64,000 nt of DNA from an uncultured Pseudomonadales bacterium. Its GTDB lineage: Bacteria; Pseudomonadota; Gammaproteobacteria; Pseudomonadales; Azotimanducaceae. The notes under the pieces were generated by a model. That model was not told where the DNA came from. It ran no database searches and was given only the letters and a program-made list of their open reading frames with translations. Of this stretch, positions 819-9,249 are shown piece after piece. The translations under genes and the position numbers were made by a program. Numbering within the stretch: the stretch's first letter is position 1; each line of letters begins with the position of its first letter. The stretch is taken from contig OY282519.1 of NCBI GenBank assembly GCA_958296405.1, positions 1,286,132 through 1,350,131 of the forward strand. Direction: 5' to 3'.

Positions 819-2690
819 CTAGCCGACAGCCGCGGCCGGCGCGCTGTCAACGATGCGGCCCGCCTCGAGCCGCACGATGGCATCGGCCACGGACAGCAAG
901 CGGCCGCCATGGGCGATGGCCACGATGGTCGTGGCGCCGCGCGCCGCGGTGAGCGCCGCGGCGATGAGCTGCTCGGTTTCCGGATCGACGTTGTTGGTGG
1001 CCTCGTCGAGCACGAGGAGCGCCGGCTCCCGCAGGAGCGCCCGCGCCAACGTGAGGCGCTGCCGTTGGCCCCCTGAGAGCGTCGCGCCGCCGTCCCCCAC
1101 CACCATGTCCAGGCCCTTCGGCAATGCTCGGACGAAGCCATCGGCGCCGGCCCGATGCAACGCCTGCCAGAGCGCGGCGTCGGCTGCATCGCCGCGCGCC
1201 ATTTTGAGGTTTGCCCGGATCGTGTCGTGAAAGAGATACGGATTCTGCGGCACATAGGCGATGGACTTGCGCCAGCGGCGGCGGTTGGCTGCCGTGAGGC
1301 AGGCGCCGTCCACAAACACAGCGCCGTCCGTTGGCGTCAGCATGGCAGTGAGGATGTCTGCCAAGGTGCTCTTGCCGGCGCCCGATGGCCCGGTGATGGC
1401 TGTCATGGCGCCGGCGGGCAACGCCAAGTGTACGTGGGCCAGCCCGTGCCCGCCCTCGGCCGCGCTGAACTTGAAGGAGACGTCCTCAAGAGTGATGGCT
1501 CGGCGCAGCGCCATGCGGCCCTCGCCCGCGGTCCACGAGCCCGGCGCATTGTCGCCGCCGGTTGGCACAGAGCGTATTGGCACTCTGGGCTGGTTGACCT
1601 GCGCCGCCGCCAACAAACGGAGCGCTTGCTGGGCGTTGGCGTAGGCGGGGAGCGTGTTCACCAAGCGGTGGAACGCCTGCTGTATGGCCGCGGCGGCCGG
1701 CAGCAGCCGCCCGAAAATCAACAGCAAGATCAATAGCTCTGGCAGCGCCGTCGCCGTGGTGCTGACGGTGAGCCAAACCACGGCCACCCCGGCGGCTGCG
1801 CTGCCCATCCAGATGACGGCGCGGCCCGCGGCGTCGACGCCGACGAACGCGATCTGCCGGCCCCGAATCTCGGTGAGGCTGTCCGTGAAGCGCTCCACAT
1901 GCAACGCCTCTGCGTCATAGCTGCGAGCGACCTTGAGGCCGGCGATGAAACTCGTCACGTTCGCCAGCAGCGCCCCGTTGGCGCGCGTGAGTTGCGCACC
2001 GAGGCGCGCAACGCGGCCCACAAGCGGATAGATGATGCCCAAGAGGCAGGCGCCGACGCCGATCGCAGTGGCCGCGCCCAGCGGAGAAATCAAGAAAGCC
2101 ATCGTTATCTTGACAGCGATCACCACCGCGGTGGACACGAGATGCAGGAGATGTTTCACGCCGTGGCCGGCGCGGACGATGTCGACGGTCAGGACGTTCT
2201 GCAGGTCTGACGGGCGTTGGCGGCTAAGCGTTTCCCACTCGGCATGCGCGATGGCTTGGTAGAACCGTTCGCGGCAGCGATCGACGAACTCTAGGTGGGT
2301 TCGCGCCAGGAGCACATCGCGCAGCCACGCCACCGCGGATCGCACCGCCATGAGCGCCAGGAAGACACCGAGCACCGTCGGCAGCGTCAACTCGACGCCG
2401 GTCGCGCTCGCTGCCTGCGTCATCATGCTGAACAAGGCGCCGGTCGCGCCGTCGGCGGCGCCGATGCCGACCAAGCTCAGGAGCGGCAGCAGCATCAGGA
2501 TGCCGAACGCCTCGGTGGCAGATGTGGCGAGCGACAGCGCGACGACCAAGCCGATTCGCCCCGGCGCGTCCGCGACTAGCGCTTGGGTGAACGCTGCGGC
2601 ATCGGCGAGGACCCGAGGCTGGCCGGCGACCGGCGCAAATCCGCGAGCGCCGTTGGCCGGCCTAGTGTCCATGGGCATGCGCGCCATCAT
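819..2690 (-). CDS. ABC transporter, fused permease and ATPase (MsbA-like exporter)
   Basis: The protein of about 623 residues has an N-terminal six-helix-type membrane domain and a C-terminal nucleotide-binding domain. The latter shows Walker A GPSGAGKST near residue 434, signature LSGGQRQR near 538, Walker B LLVLDE near 558 and a switch histidine near 594. All ATPase residues look intact. The start chosen is the ATG at 2688-2690, whose ATGA overlaps the TGA of the upstream glycosyltransferase and implies translational coupling. A second ATG follows at once. There is no C39 peptidase domain, so this is not a peptidase-containing bacteriocin exporter. The context suggests export of a lipid-linked glycan or other surface lipid; the substrate is inferred. 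Confidence 0.85.
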   Translation of the reverse strand: MMARMPMDTRPANGARGFAPVAGQPRVLADAAAFTQALVADAPGRIGLVVALSLATSATEAFGILMLLPLLSLVGIGAADGATGALFSMMTQAASATGVELTLPTVLGVFLALMAVRSAVAWLRDVLLARTHLEFVDRCRERFYQAIAHAEWETLSRQRPSDLQNVLTVDIVRAGHGVKHLLHLVSTAVVIAVKITMAFLISPLGAATAIGVGACLLGIIYPLVGRVARLGAQLTRANGALLANVTSFIAGLKVARSYDAEALHVERFTDSLTEIRGRQIAFVGVDAAGRAVIWMGSAAAGVAVVWLTVSTTATALPELLILLLIFGRLLPAAAAIQQAFHRLVNTLPAYANAQQALRLLAAAQVNQPRVPIRSVPTGGDNAPGSWTAGEGRMALRRAITLEDVSFKFSAAEGGHGLAHVHLALPAGAMTAITGPSGAGKSTLADILTAMLTPTDGAVFVDGACLTAANRRRWRKSIAYVPQNPYLFHDTIRANLKMARGDAADAALWQALHRAGADGFVRALPKGLDMVVGDGGATLSGGQRQRLTLARALLREPALLVLDEATNNVDPETEQLIAAALTAARGATTIVAIAHGGRLLSVADAIVRLEAGRIVDSAPAAAVG

Positions 2691-4303
2691 ACATCGGGAT
2701 GCAGCGGCGCCGCTTCGGGCGCCGCGACGCGGAACATGATGCCGTCGGAGAATTCGGCCGCCAACAAAAGCGTGGTGAGCGACCGCAAGTGCCGAGCGTC
2801 GTATTGGAACCTTGGGTCGCGGTCGGCGAACCAAATGATTGGGGAACCTTCCGGCAATGTGGCGAGCCGCCGCGCCAGCCCCTCTGTGTCAAGGGGCAGG
2901 AGCGGGTACTTCCCGCGCTCTGTGGTGCCGCTGCCAAGGACGAGCGTGGCGTGCAACGCGCCGTAGCGGTTCGAGAGCACGATGCCCTCTGTGGGATGTG
3001 CCCGCAAATGCTGAACGATCTCGGAGTCGCGCCAGCGAGCCGTGTTGTAGGACTTGCCGAAGTATCCGGACTCGAGCCCCGCCATCGACCGCGCCACGCC
3101 CTCCCGCCCGGTGAGGATGGCGTTAGCGAGGCCGCCGAGCACGATGACGGCAACGGCCGTCCGCTTGGCGACGGTGCGCCAGCCGGCGGTTGGCAGGTGC
3201 ATGCAACGATCCAACGCAAAACTCGCTGTGTACAGCAACGGCACGAAGAGGGGCAGGAGGTAGCGGGGGTCATTGCTGATGGTGGTGACGGAGGCCAGTG
3301 GCAGCGCCACCACGATGAACGCGAGGTATGTCACGCAGAAGATGACGGTCGCAAGCATGGCGCCGTCCGTTTGGCGCCCCGCCAACCACCTGAGCGTGGG
3401 GCGGGCGCCGACAGCGGCGATCGCCAAGGCGAGCAAGCCGGCGGCCAGCCACGAAACGGGGATCAGCCAGGCTGGCGCCGGCTCGGGAACCACCGCTCCC
3501 GCCATCACCCGGAAAGCATCTTGCAGCGCTTCGAGGGCGGGGGTGCCGGAGGGTGCGCCGAGCCGCGGCCGTTCCCAAACGCCGAAGCCCACCAAGTTGT
3601 GCAAGACCATTGCCGCCAACGGCGTCGCCGCCAGTGCTCCGAAGACCGCAGCGAGCCGCAGTCGGCGGCCAAGGGGGGCTTCTCGCCGCGCCAGCAACAG
3701 CAGCGTTCCGGTGACGATGACGGCGACGCCGGCATAGCGGGTGGCTGCCGCCAGACCAGCGCACAAGGCGGCGAGGATCAAGGCTGGCCTAGTGAGGCGC
3801 TGGTGCTGGTTCGCAAACGGCGCCATCCATGTGAGGGCGAGCAGCGTGAAGGCGATGAAGGTCGCCTCGGTCATCACATAGGACGCAGAGTGGCTGAGGT
3901 GGTGCGAGGTCGCGCAGACCAGCGTGGCTCCCGCCACCAAGGCCCGCGAGCGGATGGCCCGGCGCAACCACATGCCGGCGACCAAGATGATGGCGCCGAA
4001 GGCGGCCGCGTTGATCAGCCGCGCCGCTTCGGCAGCCTCGATGCCCGTGACGTCGGCGACGCCAGCGAGCAGGAGCGGGAAGAGGAAGGGGTACTGCGGG
4101 GGGGCATGGCCGCGAAAGTCCACGAGGCCGTGTCCGGCGAGCAGGTTCTCCGCGGTGGAGAGGTAGGTGACCGAGTCTGGGCCGATGGCCGCCCCTAGGG
4201 TGGAAGTGCGAACCAGGATGTATGCCGTGCCCAATGCTGCGAGCGCGAGCAGGGGCCAAGGCGCGGCGTGGCGCTGGGCCGACGGGTCGTGCATCGGCGG
4301 CAT
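2687..4303 (-). CDS. GT-C type membrane glycosyltransferase (GT39/PMT-like)
   Basis: This polytopic protein of about 538 residues has the usual GT-C layout: a first membrane helix, then a periplasmic loop with an acidic motif (GPDSVTYL) typical of lipid-phosphate-sugar-dependent transferases, many further helices, and a soluble C-terminal tail. The ATG at 4301-4303 was chosen because a strong GGAGGAG lies 10 nt upstream; the open frame extends to 4363 without such support. Its stop overlaps the start of the downstream ABC exporter. The family transfers sugars from polyprenyl-phosphate donors at the outer face of the inner membrane. The acceptor is unknown. It lacks the shared C-terminal module seen in other glycan proteins of this window. 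Confidence 0.75.
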   Translation of the reverse strand: MPPMHDPSAQRHAAPWPLLALAALGTAYILVRTSTLGAAIGPDSVTYLSTAENLLAGHGLVDFRGHAPPQYPFLFPLLLAGVADVTGIEAAEAARLINAAAFGAIILVAGMWLRRAIRSRALVAGATLVCATSHHLSHSASYVMTEATFIAFTLLALTWMAPFANQHQRLTRPALILAALCAGLAAATRYAGVAVIVTGTLLLLARREAPLGRRLRLAAVFGALAATPLAAMVLHNLVGFGVWERPRLGAPSGTPALEALQDAFRVMAGAVVPEPAPAWLIPVSWLAAGLLALAIAAVGARPTLRWLAGRQTDGAMLATVIFCVTYLAFIVVALPLASVTTISNDPRYLLPLFVPLLYTASFALDRCMHLPTAGWRTVAKRTAVAVIVLGGLANAILTGREGVARSMAGLESGYFGKSYNTARWRDSEIVQHLRAHPTEGIVLSNRYGALHATLVLGSGTTERGKYPLLPLDTEGLARRLATLPEGSPIIWFADRDPRFQYDARHLRSLTTLLLAAEFSDGIMFRVAAPEAAPLHPDV

Positions 4304-4403
4304 GATGCCATGACTCCTCCGTCGCTTTGGCGGAGCGCATCCGACCAGCCGGCAGCCCGGCACCCAAGCCGCGGCCCAGATGGAAGGTGGCGGCTATCCG
4401 CCG

Positions 4404-5207
4404 TCACGCCGGCGCGTAGCAGCCGAGCTTCAAGTCTTCGGCGTACCGTTCGGCGAGCAGCGCCTTGTTGGCGGCGGTCAACTGTTTGTTCGAGATCGAT
4501 CTGGCCGTGTCCACGGCGGCCGGCGAACTCTGCCAACCCGCCATGGTGTTCAACCGCGGCAACGCCGCCTCGGGCAGGCCGAGGTGCTCCACGACTTGGC
4601 TGAAGTCTGCATCGAGATGCTCAAAGCGGCCGATGAAGTCCGGCAGGCGTCTATCATCATCGGTGCCGAGCTGCGCATGCTGCGACAAGAAGTGGCGGTC
4701 CGCCACGGCATCCGAGGCATAGGGTGTCAACAGCCACCGGCAGTAATCGTCGAAGTCCACAGTGCCGGCCAGCCCGTGGAACCGAGCGAATAGCCCGCGG
4801 CACTTCTCCTGCTTGCGGAGGAACTTGTCGCGGCTCCGGTAATGCTGGGCAAAGCGATGCAGCTCGGCGTGGAAGGACAGCGCTCGCGTGAAGGGGTGCC
4901 GGATGAAGGCGAAGCGGTAGTAACGCCGCGCCTCCGGCCGCAGGGCGAAGAGTTGCGCGGCGCTCGAGCCTTCGAACACCTCGGCGTCTGGGGTGGCTGC
5001 GCGGAGCGCTTCTTTGATGCTTCTGGATGCCACCTTCGGGACGCAAAGCCAGACGTAGCCGTGCTTGCGGGAGACGATCTTCTCGGCGCCCAAATCCGCT
5101 GGACGGCGCATCGTGCGGGCGATGCGGAGTGCTGTGGCCAACCGCCCGCGCCCTAGGGCAAGCGCGGTGTCCTTGGCGACGATCGGCAAGTCTGCGACGG
5201 CGATCAC
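4404..5207 (-). CDS. Sulfotransferase family 2-like protein, copy 1
   Basis: The 267-residue protein has the two PAPS-binding elements of the sulfotransferase-2 family: a P-loop-like 5'-phosphosulfate segment PKVASRS (residues 57-63) and the 3'-phosphate segment RHPFTRALS (103-111). It probably transfers sulfate from PAPS to a carbohydrate hydroxyl. It is a close paralogue of the gene at 6193-6993, sharing nearly identical cores around FHGLAG, DFDDYCRWLLTPYASDAVADRHF and the C-terminal GWQSSPAAVD. No signal peptide is seen, so it should act in the cytosol on a precursor. The surrounding glycosyltransferases suggest a sulfated surface glycan. Confidence 0.82.
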   Translation of the reverse strand: MIAVADLPIVAKDTALALGRGRLATALRIARTMRRPADLGAEKIVSRKHGYVWLCVPKVASRSIKEALRAATPDAEVFEGSSAAQLFALRPEARRYYRFAFIRHPFTRALSFHAELHRFAQHYRSRDKFLRKQEKCRGLFARFHGLAGTVDFDDYCRWLLTPYASDAVADRHFLSQHAQLGTDDDRRLPDFIGRFEHLDADFSQVVEHLGLPEAALPRLNTMAGWQSSPAAVDTARSISNKQLTAANKALLAERYAEDLKLGCYAPA

Positions 5208-5544
5208 AGGGGCGGCATTCTAGCCGATGGGCGTCGTCCTCGTTCCAATCCTGCGCGGCTCAGTACCTGCCAGACGGTCGCCAGCAAGGGAGGGCTTTCT
5301 GGGGGAGAGGTGCCTTGGCAGGTGGAACTGCCAATAGGCGCGCCGAGAACAGTCAGCGGCTTTTCACCCCATGCTCCAACAATCATCGGCCCATGCCCCC
5401 CTCCCGTGAGTGTGATCCAAGGGACGGATGGCGTGCGCTTGCGGCTCGCTTCGGCCGGGCGCTGCGTAACCGCTTGGAGTTGGCGCCGGCCGATGGCGAC
5501 GGGCTGGGGCCGGCCGGCGGCGTTGCGTTCTTGCTTGGCTCGCC
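5208..5544. other. Non-coding stretch between sulfotransferase copy 1 and a decayed membrane gene
   Basis: No open frame here has convincing protein character and no repeat or hairpin stands out. It may contain the divergent promoter for the minus-strand sulfotransferase and the plus-strand membrane gene, but no clear -35/-10 pair was found. Confidence 0.4.
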
Positions 5545-6208
5545 ATGTGCCTGACGCTGGCTAACGCCACGCTCGCGATCGCGGTGTCGCCGTGGCAGTG
5601 CTACTTGGCCTCGGCGGAAAGACTGCTTGATCGAAGATCTCACCGTGGCCGCGTATCTGCTGGCGGGGCTTGTTTTGTTACCCGCGGCCCGCAGCCGGCG
5701 AGGCTTCGCTCGGCTCGCGATGGCCGTGCTGGCCGTCGGCATGGCTGTGGTGGCGGGCGAGGAGATTAGCTGGGGACAGCGGCTTCTCGGCTACGCCATG
5801 CCGGACTTCCTGTCGCAAAACAGCCAGGGCGAAGCCAATGTCCACAATTTGCGTAGCGTCGGCCGTTTGCTGAGGGAAGCCAACTGCGGCCTCTTGCTGC
5901 TGGCATGCGTCTTGGCCGTCGCCGGTGCCTTGGAGATGGTTCTTTCGCTCGAGTACCTCGCCACGTTGGCGGGCGGTCCGGCCGTTTGGCTGGCGTTCGC
6001 GGGCGAGGGGCAGAACGCGCTGCTGCTGATTTTGGGTTCTCACGGGGCGCTCGCAGCGAGGGCGTGCGGCGCCGTCGTGCCCCTGCCGGACTACCCGATC
6101 GAGCGGATCCGCACCGGCGTGTGGAACTTCAAGGAGGAGCTATGGCAGGTGCAGGTGCGCCGAACCACGCTGCCGGGCTCGCCGACCCGCGGTCATTCGG
6201 GCGCGTAG
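5545..6208 (+). pseudogene. Membrane protein with EEISWGQRL motif, frameshifted and with a shortened C-terminal module
   Basis: The main frame (TTG 5627 to 6208) encodes about four hydrophobic segments and a conspicuous GEEISWGQRL motif followed by NVHNL, a pattern seen in a family of uncharacterised bacterial membrane proteins. The natural N-terminus seems to lie in another frame (5545 onward, LANATLAIAVSPWQCYLASAERLL), so a one-base frameshift near 5618-5630 is likely. The C-terminus jumps directly to LPDYPIERIRTG...LWQVQ, which matches only the last third of the module shared by three other proteins here, as if about 70 residues were deleted. It overlaps the convergent sulfotransferase by 16 bp. 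Function unknown; probably a decaying gene. Confidence 0.5.
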
Positions 6209-6993
6209 CCGCCGAGGTTCAAGTCTTCGGCGTACCGCGCCGCCAGCAGCGCCTTGTTGGCGGCCGTGAGCTGTCTGGTCGAGATCGATCTGGCCGCGTC
6301 CACAGCGGCCGGCGAACTCTGCCAACCCGCCATTGTGTTCAACTGAGGCAACGCCGCCTTGGGCAGGCCTAGGCGCTCCAAGACTTGGCTGAAGTCCGCC
6401 TCAAGGTGCTCGAAGCGGCCGATGAAGTCCAGCGGGCGTCCATCCTCGGCGGCGATCTGCATGTGCTGCGACGAGAAGTGGCGGTCGGCCACCGCATCCG
6501 AAGCATAGGGCGTTAACAGCCATCGGCAGTAGTCGTCGAAGTCCGCGGTGCCGGCGAGCCCGTGGAATCGCGCGAGTAACCTGCTGATCCGCATCTGCTT
6601 ATTGCGGAACCTGTGGTTGCCTCGGTAGTGCGTGGCGAAGCGATGCAACTCGGTGTGGAAGGACAGGGCCCGCGTGAAGGGGTGCCGGACGAAGGCGAAT
6701 CGGTGGTAATGGCGCGTCTCTGGCCACCGGGCGAAGAGTTGCGCGGCGCTCAGGCGGTAGAACACTTCGGCATCCGGGGTCACCGCGCGCAGCGCGCTGG
6801 TGAGGCTCGTGGAGGCAACCTTTGGAACGGAAAGCCAGACGTAGCCGTACTTGCGAGAGATGATCTTTTGCGCGTGCAGATCCATCGGATTGCGCGCCGT
6901 GCGGGCGATGCGGAACGCGGTGGCCAGCCGGCCGCGCCCCAAGGCGAGCGCGAGGTCCTTGGCGACGGTCGGCAGGTCGTTCGCGGCGATCAC
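6193..6993 (-). CDS. Sulfotransferase family 2-like protein, copy 2
   Basis: Paralogue of the sulfotransferase at 4404-5207, with the 5'-phosphosulfate motif PKVASTS and the 3'-phosphate motif RHPFTRALS intact. The start is placed at GTG 6991-6993. That start aligns with the N-terminus of copy 1 (MIA.DLP.VAKD), has GAGGTG upstream, and forms a GTGA overlap with the stop of the upstream glycosyltransferase. The open frame reaches 7056, but that extension is not conserved in copy 1. Divergence from copy 1 is spread along the protein, suggesting an old tandem duplication rather than an assembly error. It probably sulfates a carbohydrate together with the neighbouring GT2 enzyme. Confidence 0.82.
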   Translation of the reverse strand: MIAANDLPTVAKDLALALGRGRLATAFRIARTARNPMDLHAQKIISRKYGYVWLSVPKVASTSLTSALRAVTPDAEVFYRLSAAQLFARWPETRHYHRFAFVRHPFTRALSFHTELHRFATHYRGNHRFRNKQMRISRLLARFHGLAGTADFDDYCRWLLTPYASDAVADRHFSSQHMQIAAEDGRPLDFIGRFEHLEADFSQVLERLGLPKAALPQLNTMAGWQSSPAAVDAARSISTRQLTAANKALLAARYAEDLNLGGYAPE

Positions 6994-8465
6994 CGGGGCA
7001 CCTCGAAAGCGGCGGCATCTGGCGGGGCAAGCGGGAGTGGCGAGGCAGCGCCGCAATTGCTGCCCGCCTGGGCTTCGGTGAGGCCAGCCATGCCCGGCGC
7101 CCAGCCGGGGGCGCTATGTTGCGCCCGCGCCAAAAAGTAGCCGTCGTGCGCGCCCCAAGTGTGGCCGTGGCCGTGTCGCACCAGCATGAAGCCGGCGCCG
7201 TGCGTGCGGTACACGCCGCCGCCGCCGCGCAGCACATCTTCGACCAATGCCCAATCGACGCCGTGTGGGGCGTTACGCCAGCCGCCGATGTCGTCTAGGT
7301 CGGCCCGCGCGATCAGCAGCGCGCCGCCGGCAAAGCAGCTCGCTCGCCACGCCTCGCCGCGCCCTTGGTGGCAATGCAGGGTGCGATTCGCCGCCGCAAG
7401 GTAGACGAACTCCATTCCCTTGCACACGAGGCTCGCGCCCGAGTAGGCATGGGCTAGGGCAAGGTCCCACACATGCTCCGGGCCGTAGCGGTCGTCATCG
7501 TCCATCTTCGTCAACAATGTGCCGCTCGATGCTTGGACGGCGCCGTTCAGCACGGCGCCCAAGGGAGCGCCGGCGGGTGCCGGTGCGACTTTCGCAGGCA
7601 CCCCCAGCGCGGCGAGGCGCCGCTCGACGCCGGCGAAGGCGGGTTCGTTGCCATGCGGCGCCAGCACCAACTCCAAGCGCGGCCAAGTTTGGCTCGCCAC
7701 CGCCGCGAGCGCCTGCGGCAGCAGCGCGGGACGCCGAGTGGCAAGCAGTATCGAAACCAGCGGCAGGTTGGTGCGCTGGCGCGCCCAAGCGGCGTGTCCA
7801 CGCATGGCCGCGCGGCGCAGGTTGATGCTGTGCAGCTCCCTAGCTGCGACATCCAGGCCGGCGACGTCTGCGGCCAGCAATGCATGCAACTCCGCGCCGA
7901 GCAGGGTGCGCAGCCGCGGGGTGGCGTCGGCGACGTGAACCACCACGCCGGCCGCGGCCAGGCGGGCTAATTCGGCGCCGCGTGCCACGACATCCCGGTG
8001 GAACGCCGGCGCATCCTCCACATGGTGGAAACGGCGCAGGCGCAGCGGGTGGGCGCGACCAAGCGCCCGATGCGCCTTGACGCCCGGCGGCAGGCAAGAG
8101 AGCGGCCCCAAAGCGGCCACCTCGGGGCTGGCGTCGCGTGGCCAGTGGATGGGGTTGTGGCGTTTCAGGTTGAAGGTGGGTAGGGTTTCCGGCGCTGTTA
8201 CACGGCGCGCGCCGACACGGCTGCAGCGGCCGGCTGGGCAAACCTCCTGCAGACGATGCCACCACGCGCACAGAAACCACTGCGCCGCCCAGCGCCGGTT
8301 GGCCGCCAACAGCGCGAGCCGTCCGAGCGCGGCCAGCATTGACGCTCTGGGGCGGCCACGTCGCTGCGACCGCGCTGTGCGCAGGCGTCGCGCCCAGCGG
8401 GCATGGAGCAAACGGCGCAACGCCGTCGTGGTGTTGTCCTTTGCGCCTCGGGCCGGGCTACTCAT
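6990..8465 (-). CDS. Glycosyltransferase family 2 protein with long N-terminal extension
   Basis: This 491-residue protein has a GT-A fold domain in its C-terminal half. It starts at LPLVSILLATRRP, contains SQTWPRLELVLA, and has the donor-binding acidic cluster MDDDDRYGPEH, all hallmarks of GT2 enzymes. The N-terminal 230 residues are basic, then resemble a second, degenerate glycosyltransferase-like region ending in LHSINLRR. No membrane helices are evident. The stop overlaps the GTG of the sulfotransferase (GTGA), so sugar addition and sulfation are likely co-translated steps in one pathway. The sugar donor cannot be told from sequence. Confidence 0.75.
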   Translation of the reverse strand: MSSPARGAKDNTTTALRRLLHARWARRLRTARSQRRGRPRASMLAALGRLALLAANRRWAAQWFLCAWWHRLQEVCPAGRCSRVGARRVTAPETLPTFNLKRHNPIHWPRDASPEVAALGPLSCLPPGVKAHRALGRAHPLRLRRFHHVEDAPAFHRDVVARGAELARLAAAGVVVHVADATPRLRTLLGAELHALLAADVAGLDVAARELHSINLRRAAMRGHAAWARQRTNLPLVSILLATRRPALLPQALAAVASQTWPRLELVLAPHGNEPAFAGVERRLAALGVPAKVAPAPAGAPLGAVLNGAVQASSGTLLTKMDDDDRYGPEHVWDLALAHAYSGASLVCKGMEFVYLAAANRTLHCHQGRGEAWRASCFAGGALLIARADLDDIGGWRNAPHGVDWALVEDVLRGGGGVYRTHGAGFMLVRHGHGHTWGAHDGYFLARAQHSAPGWAPGMAGLTEAQAGSNCGAASPLPLAPPDAAAFEVPR

Positions 8466-8583: not shown

Positions 8584-8723
8584 GGGAACCCCTGCCCTAA
8601 AAGGGGTATCCCTTGAAGCGCAAACGCCCGTTGGCTTCGCGGGGCGCCGCATCCCGATTTTGGCCATGCGATTGCATGGGGGGCGGAAACGCCCGCTCAG
8701 ACGCCCTACGGGGCGTCTGAGCG
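8584..8723 (+). ncRNA. Candidate structured RNA: series of perfect hairpins with GNRA and UNCG tetraloops
   Basis: Four strong hairpins occur within 140 nt. 8584-8612: GGGA+ACCCCT pairing with AGGGGT+TCCC, one bulged A. 8664-8679: CCATGC/GCATGG. 8681-8694: GGGCG-GAAA-CGCCC. 8694-8723: 13-bp stem closed by C(TACG)G. A weaker stem GAAGC/GCTTC lies at 8615-8639. GAAA and C(UACG)G are classic GNRA and UNCG tetraloops only when read on the plus strand, which assigns the strand. There is no T-tract, so it is not simply a terminator. The arrangement resembles multi-stem elements such as HEARO/IscB-type RNAs, but no IscB-like ORF follows and the family is a guess. It lies between the GT2 gene and the RiPP precursor. 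Confidence 0.45.
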
Positions 8724-8780: not shown

Positions 8781-9071
8781 TCACGCGTGGGGGTGGGACT
8801 GATAGACATGGCCTAAGTTCCAATCGCCGTGGCCAGCGGCCACCGCTGCCAACTCGGCCTCGCCCAGCTGCGGCGATGGCGGCAGAACGAGGTGCGCCGT
8901 CGTTGCCGACTCCTCGTGGACGGCGACGGACACGGACTCGGGCACGTCAATGCCGAGCGCGTCCTTGATGGCCATCTTCGGATCGTCGATCAACTGGGCG
9001 CGGAAGCCTTCGTCCCGCGCTGCCCTGCCGATGAGCTCGGCGCGCATTTCCTCATGGGTTTTCGTCGTCAT
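8781..9071 (-). CDS. NHLP-type (nitrile hydratase-like leader) RiPP precursor peptide
   Basis: The 96-residue product matches the architecture of nitrile-hydratase-like leader peptides. The N-terminus is helical with ELIGRAARDEGFRAQL and DPK, followed by ALGIDVPE, then a beta segment ending HLVLPP, then GEAELAAVAAG. The double-alanine/glycine site at residues 78-80 would be the cleavage point, leaving a 16-residue core, HGDWNLGHVYQSHPHA. The core is rich in His and aromatic residues, has no Cys and only one Ser, so thiazole or lanthionine chemistry is unlikely. GAGGAAA lies 6 nt before the ATG. No maturase, YcaO, radical-SAM or C39-peptidase exporter is visible nearby; an IS begins about 95 bp upstream of the start codon. 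Family assignment is from known leader features; the product is unknown. Confidence 0.72.
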   Translation of the reverse strand: MTTKTHEEMRAELIGRAARDEGFRAQLIDDPKMAIKDALGIDVPESVSVAVHEESATTAHLVLPPSPQLGEAELAAVAAGHGDWNLGHVYQSHPHA

Positions 9072-9249
9072 GGCTTTTCCTCAAAGTGGTGTTGAGAACC
9101 CGTCACCACCAACAAGCGCTCTCCCATTCTCTCAAGGGGCGACATTACGCCCACGCCTACGGAGTGTCAATGTCATGAACCGGTTCACGATATCTGGCAC
9201 TGAGGCTGGGCAGCCTCGCAGGCGACAAGGTACTCGTTGGGGGACCGGT

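Follow-up and report, generated by a model that had tools for sequence, protein, structure and literature searches.

Precursor peptides with a nitrile hydratase-like leader (NHLP) are mostly tied to chemistry on Cys, Ser or Thr. In the prochlorosins, precursors that share similar leaders but differ in their cores are numerous and dispersed; they are modified in trans, and ProcM forms lanthionine rings from their Cys residues. In the Mpr system, ten NHLP precursors (MprE1–MprE10) are served by one enzyme set; the folded leader carries an L(X)4L motif, through which other NHLP leaders bind enzymes, and azoles are installed on Cys, Ser and Thr by the YcaO protein MprC and the oxidase MprD (PMC12455567). 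Other described systems attach terpenes to ribosomal peptides. In the MppE/MppC/MppM system, a leader-dependent RiPP prenyltransferase of alpha-beta-beta-alpha architecture uses a geranyl donor and a Trp target in a peptide with a Nif11-like leader and a LanM macrocycle, and a terpene synthase gene lies in the cluster (PMC12715784, PMC11791876); with MppC, no product was left once the target Trp had been replaced by His or Tyr (PMC12715784). NctPC prenylates Trp from a C20 donor and then cyclises the prenyl group, the prenyltransferase and the MstE-like terpene cyclase being two domains of one protein, and the ABBA fold is named in the same source for RiPP prenyltransferases (PMC13290415). Finally, noursin is a lanthipeptide with labionin and histidinobutyrine crosslinks that binds copper in a His-dependent manner (PMC10206099).

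The family described here resembles each of these systems in part. Like Mpr, it has multiple precursors with an L(X)4L-bearing NHLP leader that would be served by one enzyme set, whereas no YcaO match was found in the genome and the cores lack Cys. With Mpp it would share a leader-dependent prenyltransferase of predicted alpha-beta-beta-alpha type, accompanied by a terpene-cyclase-like gene, but the leader is of the NHLP kind, the genome gave no match to LanC-like proteins, a Trp target is not obvious and the operon holds an FPP synthase. A prenyltransferase and a terpene cyclase are predicted to act in sequence on the peptide, as in NctPC, with the difference that they are encoded by separate genes and the donor is probably C15. 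The dispersal of the precursors is like that of the prochlorosins, whereas the Cys-free cores follow a fixed His/Tyr pattern, and the His-dependent copper binding of noursin bears on an alternative considered below, although no enzyme of the noursin kind is present here.

The gene under study lies on the minus strand at positions 8781–9071 of the window (the whole 64,000-nucleotide stretch that was analysed) and, by open reading frame call and TIGR03793 match, encodes a 96-residue precursor with an ATG start. The original prediction, which had called it an orphan NHLP-type precursor with an unusual His/aromatic core, is confirmed as an observation, except for the word orphan. The leader (codons 1–80; 8832–9071, minus), delimited by the TIGR03793 match and a 15-member alignment, scores 71.7 bits against TIGR03793 over residues 5–80, passing the curated threshold of 50.9, and 30.5 bits against Pfam NHase_alpha (cut-off 27.2); it closes with ..AAVAAG, in line with the double-Ala-Gly site that had been claimed. 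Both Leu residues of its L(X)4L motif (L69..L74; 8850–8867, minus) are invariant in all 15 aligned members. The core (codons 81–96; 8784–8831, minus), defined by translation and family comparison, is HGDWNLGHVYQSHPHA, with 16 residues, no Cys and one Ser, and it comprises His1, a V-Y pair and H-P-H. AG or GG stands just before the core in 15 of 15 members, and cleavage is predicted at this position.

Homologues are abundant in the same genome (G000; 3.83 Mb, one contig). The window protein returned 17 matches there, of which one is the protein itself, 15 reach E ≤ 1.6e-18 and the last (E 0.45) is no better than chance, and TIGR03793 returned 16, of which 15 exceed its cut-off; none of 14 control genomes gave a TIGR03793 match above cut-off. 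The 15 full-length members are the window gene, ten precursors in one tandem array (G000:C1:2558379–2563312, locus L010) and four scattered copies (L012, L013, L014 and L015), so the further NHLP precursors that the original prediction proposed to look for number 14, with similar cores, and the gene is not an orphan. The sixteenth match is a leader-only copy without a core (L016:7306–7512, minus). This 68-residue protein is kept in both G000 and its sister species G008 (record OY282379.1), where it lies at L049:7224–7430 (minus), with 91% identity.

The cores follow a strict order. His comes directly after AG/GG in all 15 (shuffled mean 2.7, maximum 8), a Tyr with A, V, I, L, M or F immediately before it occurs in all 15 (mean 3.4, maximum 10), and HxH follows the Tyr in 14 (mean 2.2, maximum 9), the exception being array unit 7, which has HxxH instead; Cys is absent from all 15. 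In this test residues were permuted within each of the 15 cores over 20,000 rounds, and because the pattern was derived from the same cores, the shuffles measure order within them and are no independent prediction. A scripted test found the same pattern in ten cores of G008, of which two are identical, and two more (at L046 and L047:9890–10189) fit it by eye. Beyond this pair of species, LCCCW or other Cys-bearing ends are found in the three congeners whose cores were read (G004, G005 and G007), and cores of distant MAGs, read for precursors from 7 of the 12 loci outside G008, end for example in VDVNWDTVNIS or DWRNMGGPGAE; one of them, HWCSPV (L067), starts with His and has neither Tyr nor HxH. 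The window core is not a chance C-terminus, because the 15 members in the genome share its pattern; the random C-termini that the original prediction had named as grounds for doubt were not what we found among the close homologues. In nine cross-species pairs the cores evolve no faster than the leaders: nonsynonymous codons number 12 of 167 aligned in the core and 60 of 719 in the leader, counted with gaps dropped and with several pairs matched by core similarity, which biases the comparison towards conserved cores. The L014/L047 pair alone contributes six of the 12 core changes. A further G008 gene, the counterpart of the precursor linked to the exporter, stops within the leader and is followed by other genes (L047:14571–14744, minus).

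One of the scattered precursors (L015:7770–7471) stands in an operon with genes for a 345-residue protein (L015:7396–6359), a 319-residue protein (L015:6246–5287) and an FPP synthase (L015:5208–4357). The four genes lie on one strand, and their order is identical in G008, there with two precursors; G000 and G008 are closely related, so the common order carries little weight. Against NF045485 the FPP synthase reaches 293 bits, above the cut-off of 275. It looks like an extra copy, since PF00348 genes number three in G000 and in G008, two in six congeners and one in G003.

The 345-residue protein belongs to a family found at 10 places in eight of nine congeneric genomes and in three genomes, G000 among them, in a sample of 369 genomes of the class. 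All 12 places lie within 3 kb of an NHLP gene, with the NHLP domain beside the G277 gene scoring 44.3 bits, under the 50.9 cut-off. In that genome (L087:3939–7659) the family gene adjoins an 839-residue protein in which the NHLP-like domain is internal. An AlphaFold2 model of the 345-residue protein computed from nine sequences (pLDDT 87.0, pTM 0.87) contains five successive helix-strand-strand-helix units, which we take to be the layout of ABBA prenyltransferases, and the protein is predicted from this model to be ABBA-fold and prenyltransferase-like. It counts against our best explanation that profile searches of PDB, Pfam and NCBIfam with the family brought up no prenyltransferase. There was no NCBIfam match, and with thresholds as loose as E 10 neither profile nor single-sequence searches brought up anything useful in Pfam or PDB; the best PDB row for the family profile was an adenylate cyclase (E 0.29), and the three stray Pfam rows (best E 0.0063) each came from one of nine members.

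In the 319-residue protein, the stretch GRWRYAQFVPPDADDTSICGLAL contains DADDT (at residue 98), which is presumably the DXDD signature of a class-II terpene cyclase. Among the matches of its family profile are drimenol synthase at E 8.8e-7 and, at E 3.4e-4, a cyclase of the squalene-hopene type, and the NHLP-fused members of the profile also draw in nitrile hydratases. Counting against the cyclase reading, the single sequence has no clear PDB relative (best E 0.64); its score against SQHop_cyclase_C is 23.1 bits for a cut-off of 26.1, and three NHLP-fused relatives have DLDS in place of DADD. Matches were also seen in Novosphingobium (in a stretch without annotation), in Azospirillum and in Nostoc, where the matching region sits in a large protein with PhyH, UbiA and TPR domains. 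An NHLP leader fused to a squalene-cyclase-like domain is found in congeners G004, G005 and G007. These three genomes and G217 also contain NHLP clusters with LCCC(W) cores (L052, L050, L053 and L086, respectively) that hold a YcaO, a 345-family gene, a fatty-acid-desaturase-like protein and an NHLP exporter.

Directly after the array, in both G000 and G008, lies a gene for a PF13640 2OG-Fe(II) oxygenase (L010:7054–7989; 68 bits). Its residues H208-x-D210, H275 and R290 presumably fill the usual roles in such an oxygenase. No relatives at E ≤ 1e-10 were found in the other seven congeners. G000 itself has six weaker paralogues (37–44% identity) and one fragment, at 0.83–0.89 and 0.10 Mb. Five of the six have neighbours that match a lasso cyclase or lasso PqqD best in NCBIfam, and around the sixth (L082) an HprK-like protein alone was seen, all of these matches falling below the curated cut-offs. 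The loci concerned (L079–L082, at 0.83–0.89 and 0.09–0.10 Mb), together with L016:7929–9827, hold proteins that resemble lasso-type cyclases, PqqD and HprK, again with scores under the curated thresholds, and alongside them sulfotransferases, glycosyltransferases and 2OG-TPR oxygenases. Judged by eye, L082:12498–12704 and L079:5754–5909 resemble small lasso precursors.

A natural fusion connects the oxygenase to the 345-residue family. In a set of 72,556 plasmid records, the 345-family query had one match at E ≤ 0.01, the array oxygenase matched four records at E ≤ 1e-8, and the window precursor matched four distant records and nothing more. The record common to the first two lists, from Pseudanabaena galeata (NZ_CP112877.1), encodes a 597-residue protein with a 345-family domain at residues 10–360 (25% identity, E 5e-23) and an oxygenase domain at residues 383–583 (35% identity, E 9e-31). 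LanM and Nif11 precursor genes lie near it, and a neighbouring protein is faintly like the 319-residue protein (E 4e-4 over 93 residues). Thus, two proteins encoded 0.52 Mb apart in G000 form one chain elsewhere, in a RiPP cluster, and the fusion, taken with the extra FPP synthase, points to a common substrate for the two enzymes. The other three oxygenase records are from Eleftheria (with a sulfotransferase adjoining), Gloeocapsa (with an NRPS nearby) and Tistrella; the first two contexts indicate that the oxygenase family is not confined to RiPP clusters, which counts against our best explanation.

A C39 peptidase-ABC exporter, which the original prediction had advised seeking in the rest of the genome, is present: a single protein in G000 matches TIGR03796 at E ≤ 1e-100, with 902 bits (cut-off 853.3). 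Genes for its two partners are present with scores under the curated thresholds (698.2 bits versus 709.4 for TIGR03797; 85.0 versus 156.2 for TIGR03794, HlyD), a further point against our best explanation. One precursor (L013:9979–10287) lies 1.2 kb from the exporter, with a glyoxalase-family gene in between. In G008, L046:6728–9862 encodes a 1044-residue protein that combines leucine-rich repeats with a metallopeptidase domain of the reprolysin type, and L011:9697–12060 holds a shorter relative.

Our best explanation, to which we give an even chance of being correct, is that the window gene is an intact NHLP precursor of a dispersed 15-member family that is modified in trans by this set of prenyltransferase-like, cyclase-like and oxygenase proteins. 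Modification in trans, which the original prediction had offered as one possibility, is the likeliest reading. In this mechanism, the leader with its invariant L69 and L74 would be bound in trans by the enzymes, and the 345-residue protein would add a prenyl group, probably farnesyl, to the core, most likely on the invariant Tyr. The 319-residue class-II terpene-cyclase-like protein may then cyclise the prenyl group, and the array-linked 2OG-Fe(II) oxygenase would hydroxylate the product. Cleavage after AG/GG by the C39 peptidase of the one NHLP exporter would then make His residue 1 of the exported peptide. We infer all of these elements (leader recognition, prenylation and its site, cyclisation, hydroxylation and the cleavage site), as well as the service of the enzymes to every member including the window copy; that the candidate enzymes are unlinked to the window gene counts against this explanation. 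By analogy, the chemistry of NctPC and MppC is plausible for this system, while the loss of product when the MppC target Trp was changed to Tyr or His is a warning against assuming Tyr as the target here.

A more far-reaching version, which we regard as unlikely, is a genome-wide set of peptide-terpenoid hybrids: some fifteen H..Y..HxH cores farnesylated on Tyr (or His) by a single enzyme set working in trans, which would also cyclise the farnesyl group to a drimane-like cap and add hydroxyl groups, with release of peptides whose free N-terminal His could bind a metal and with cores reshuffled by gene conversion between the array and the outlying copies. No NHLP precursors of the present kind were seen described in the open-access literature searched, and the dispersed, Cys-free, His/Tyr-patterned family with its likely prenyltransferase-cyclase-oxygenase set is a pathway variant not met with in that literature. 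In one branch of the genus, where YcaO could not be detected and the cores are free of Cys, the family has nevertheless grown to fifteen genes that keep strictly to a His/Tyr pattern. Should the prenyltransferase-cyclase reading be true, these genes would belong to a natural pathway that accepts many substrates and caps ribosomal peptides with terpenes, no lanthionine rings being formed, and the 345-residue protein would represent a prenyltransferase family without a Pfam or NCBIfam model.

The same His and Tyr residues could instead serve as metal ligands. Under this alternative, which is rather unlikely but the strongest of those considered, the N-terminal His, the HxH and the Tyr would coordinate Cu, Ni or Zn, most members would be only hydroxylated by the array oxygenase or left unmodified, and the L015 operon would serve its own precursor alone. 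His1 and HxH are as constant as the Tyr, and it is the oxygenase gene, not that of the 345-residue protein, that adjoins the array. A His-dependent copper-binding RiPP is also known in noursin (PMC10206099). In the stretches read, neither a metal transporter nor a metal-regulator site was noticed. What argues for the prenylation pathway instead is the extra FPP synthase and the 345-family/oxygenase fusion, with their suggestion of one substrate for both enzymes.

The closest protein relative of the window copy is a member of the G008 array, with 89% identity. Between the two genes, 7 codons show synonymous and 11 nonsynonymous changes; these 18 all fall within codons 1–55, and codons 56–96, the last 41 (123 bases including the core), are identical in DNA. 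Equally close by DNA are unit 8 of the G000 array (92.7% over 8827–9170) and another G008 unit (92.7% over 8829–9170), and both of these matches stop at 9170, the first base of a TTGACA element. On these alignments, the copy is best read as a mosaic that would have arisen by gene conversion between copies and relocation of one unit. The earlier suggestion that the gene had been separated from its cluster holds in that the window unit is homologous to array units, but the candidate enzymes are spread over at least three other loci.

The upstream alignment places the TTGACA element, -35-like, at 9165–9170 (minus). Of the 21 upstream regions aligned, 20 retain TTGA and 16 have exact TTGACA; the one unit without the block is the G008 counterpart of the window gene, which counts against our best explanation. 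Following a spacer of 17 bases is a -10-like TAATGT (9142–9147, minus), a weak match to consensus, where array units mostly have TAGCGT or similar. A 5'UTR hairpin, GTGGTG..CACCAC (9086–9109, minus), precedes a GAGGA ribosome-binding site identified in the same alignment (9078–9082, minus); a two-sided change in one of its eight predicted pairs amounts to almost no covariation. The TTGACA-N17-TAATGT block, the small hairpin and GAGGA are arranged in the same way before array units. Downstream of the gene, a perfect 13-bp hairpin without a T run is seen in the sequence (8694–8723, strand unassigned) and is a possible terminator. In a scan for consensus promoters and terminators nothing scored, including the TTGACA block and this hairpin.

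Within the window, the earlier statement that no maturase is nearby agrees with the neighbours scanned: none of the five is a known RiPP maturase, the matches being two PF03567 sulfotransferases, a PF00535 glycosyltransferase, a PF02366 PMT and one ABC exporter. They lie in a same-strand run at 819–8465 (minus) comprising the ABC exporter, PMT-type and GT2 glycosyltransferases and the two sulfotransferases. We considered the sulfotransferases and glycosyltransferases as tailoring enzymes, a role that they may have; judged by eye, genes like these also surround the lasso-type clusters elsewhere in G000, and an apparent gene remnant lies between the run and the precursor. Upstream, long transposase-like open reading frames at 9.3–11.9 kb, also judged by eye, are in keeping with the insertion sequence noted previously. 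The window copy stands by itself beside these frames, the consensus scan did not pick up its promoter-like block, and the match of its -10-like box is weak; it could accordingly be a silent relic of an array unit that was moved by mobile elements and yields no product while the rest of the family works. We think this improbable, given that the reading frame, leader, core and ribosome-binding site are intact, that an array member of the sister species matches it without a difference over 123 bases, the core among them, and that its upstream block is no less conserved than those of array units. In our preferred reading, with the gene functional in trans, a lone precursor may belong to a pathway split over distant loci, and a missing neighbouring maturase does not amount to decay.

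Of the maturase classes that were to be sought in the rest of the genome, YcaO (at E ≤ 0.001, in G008 as well), SPASM and LANC-like gave no matches in G000. For a proteusin in the strict sense, whose core is epimerised by a radical-SAM enzyme, the observation that bears on membership is the lack of a SPASM match. Azole (TOMM) chemistry would call for a YcaO, and lanthipeptide chemistry for a LanC-like protein and core Cys; with neither protein matched in G000 and Cys in 0 of 15 cores, the earlier view that known azole or lanthionine chemistry does not fit stands. That a known kind of RiPP enzyme was overlooked (a radical-SAM protein without SPASM, a P450 or the single MNIO) and modifies the cores is very improbable, for although all seven other congeners pair their NHLP system with a YcaO somewhere in the genome and G005 also has an MNIO beside an NHLP gene, G000 has no YcaO, LANC-like or SPASM match, its cores have no Cys, and its MNIO comes with a separate small peptide that bears Cys.

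The single MNIO of G000 was set aside as the maturase for this reason, as it adjoins its own Cys-bearing 89-residue peptide and a partner protein; at this locus (L078:5017–6992) the peptide beside the MNIO and partner has Cys-Gly-His-rich repeats. MNIO genes occur in all nine searched genomes of the genus. At L051:7421–13485 of G005, an MNIO (PF05114) and a DUF2063 partner lie beside NHLP precursors with short Cys-bearing cores, and the same locus also holds two 345-family genes and a methyltransferase.
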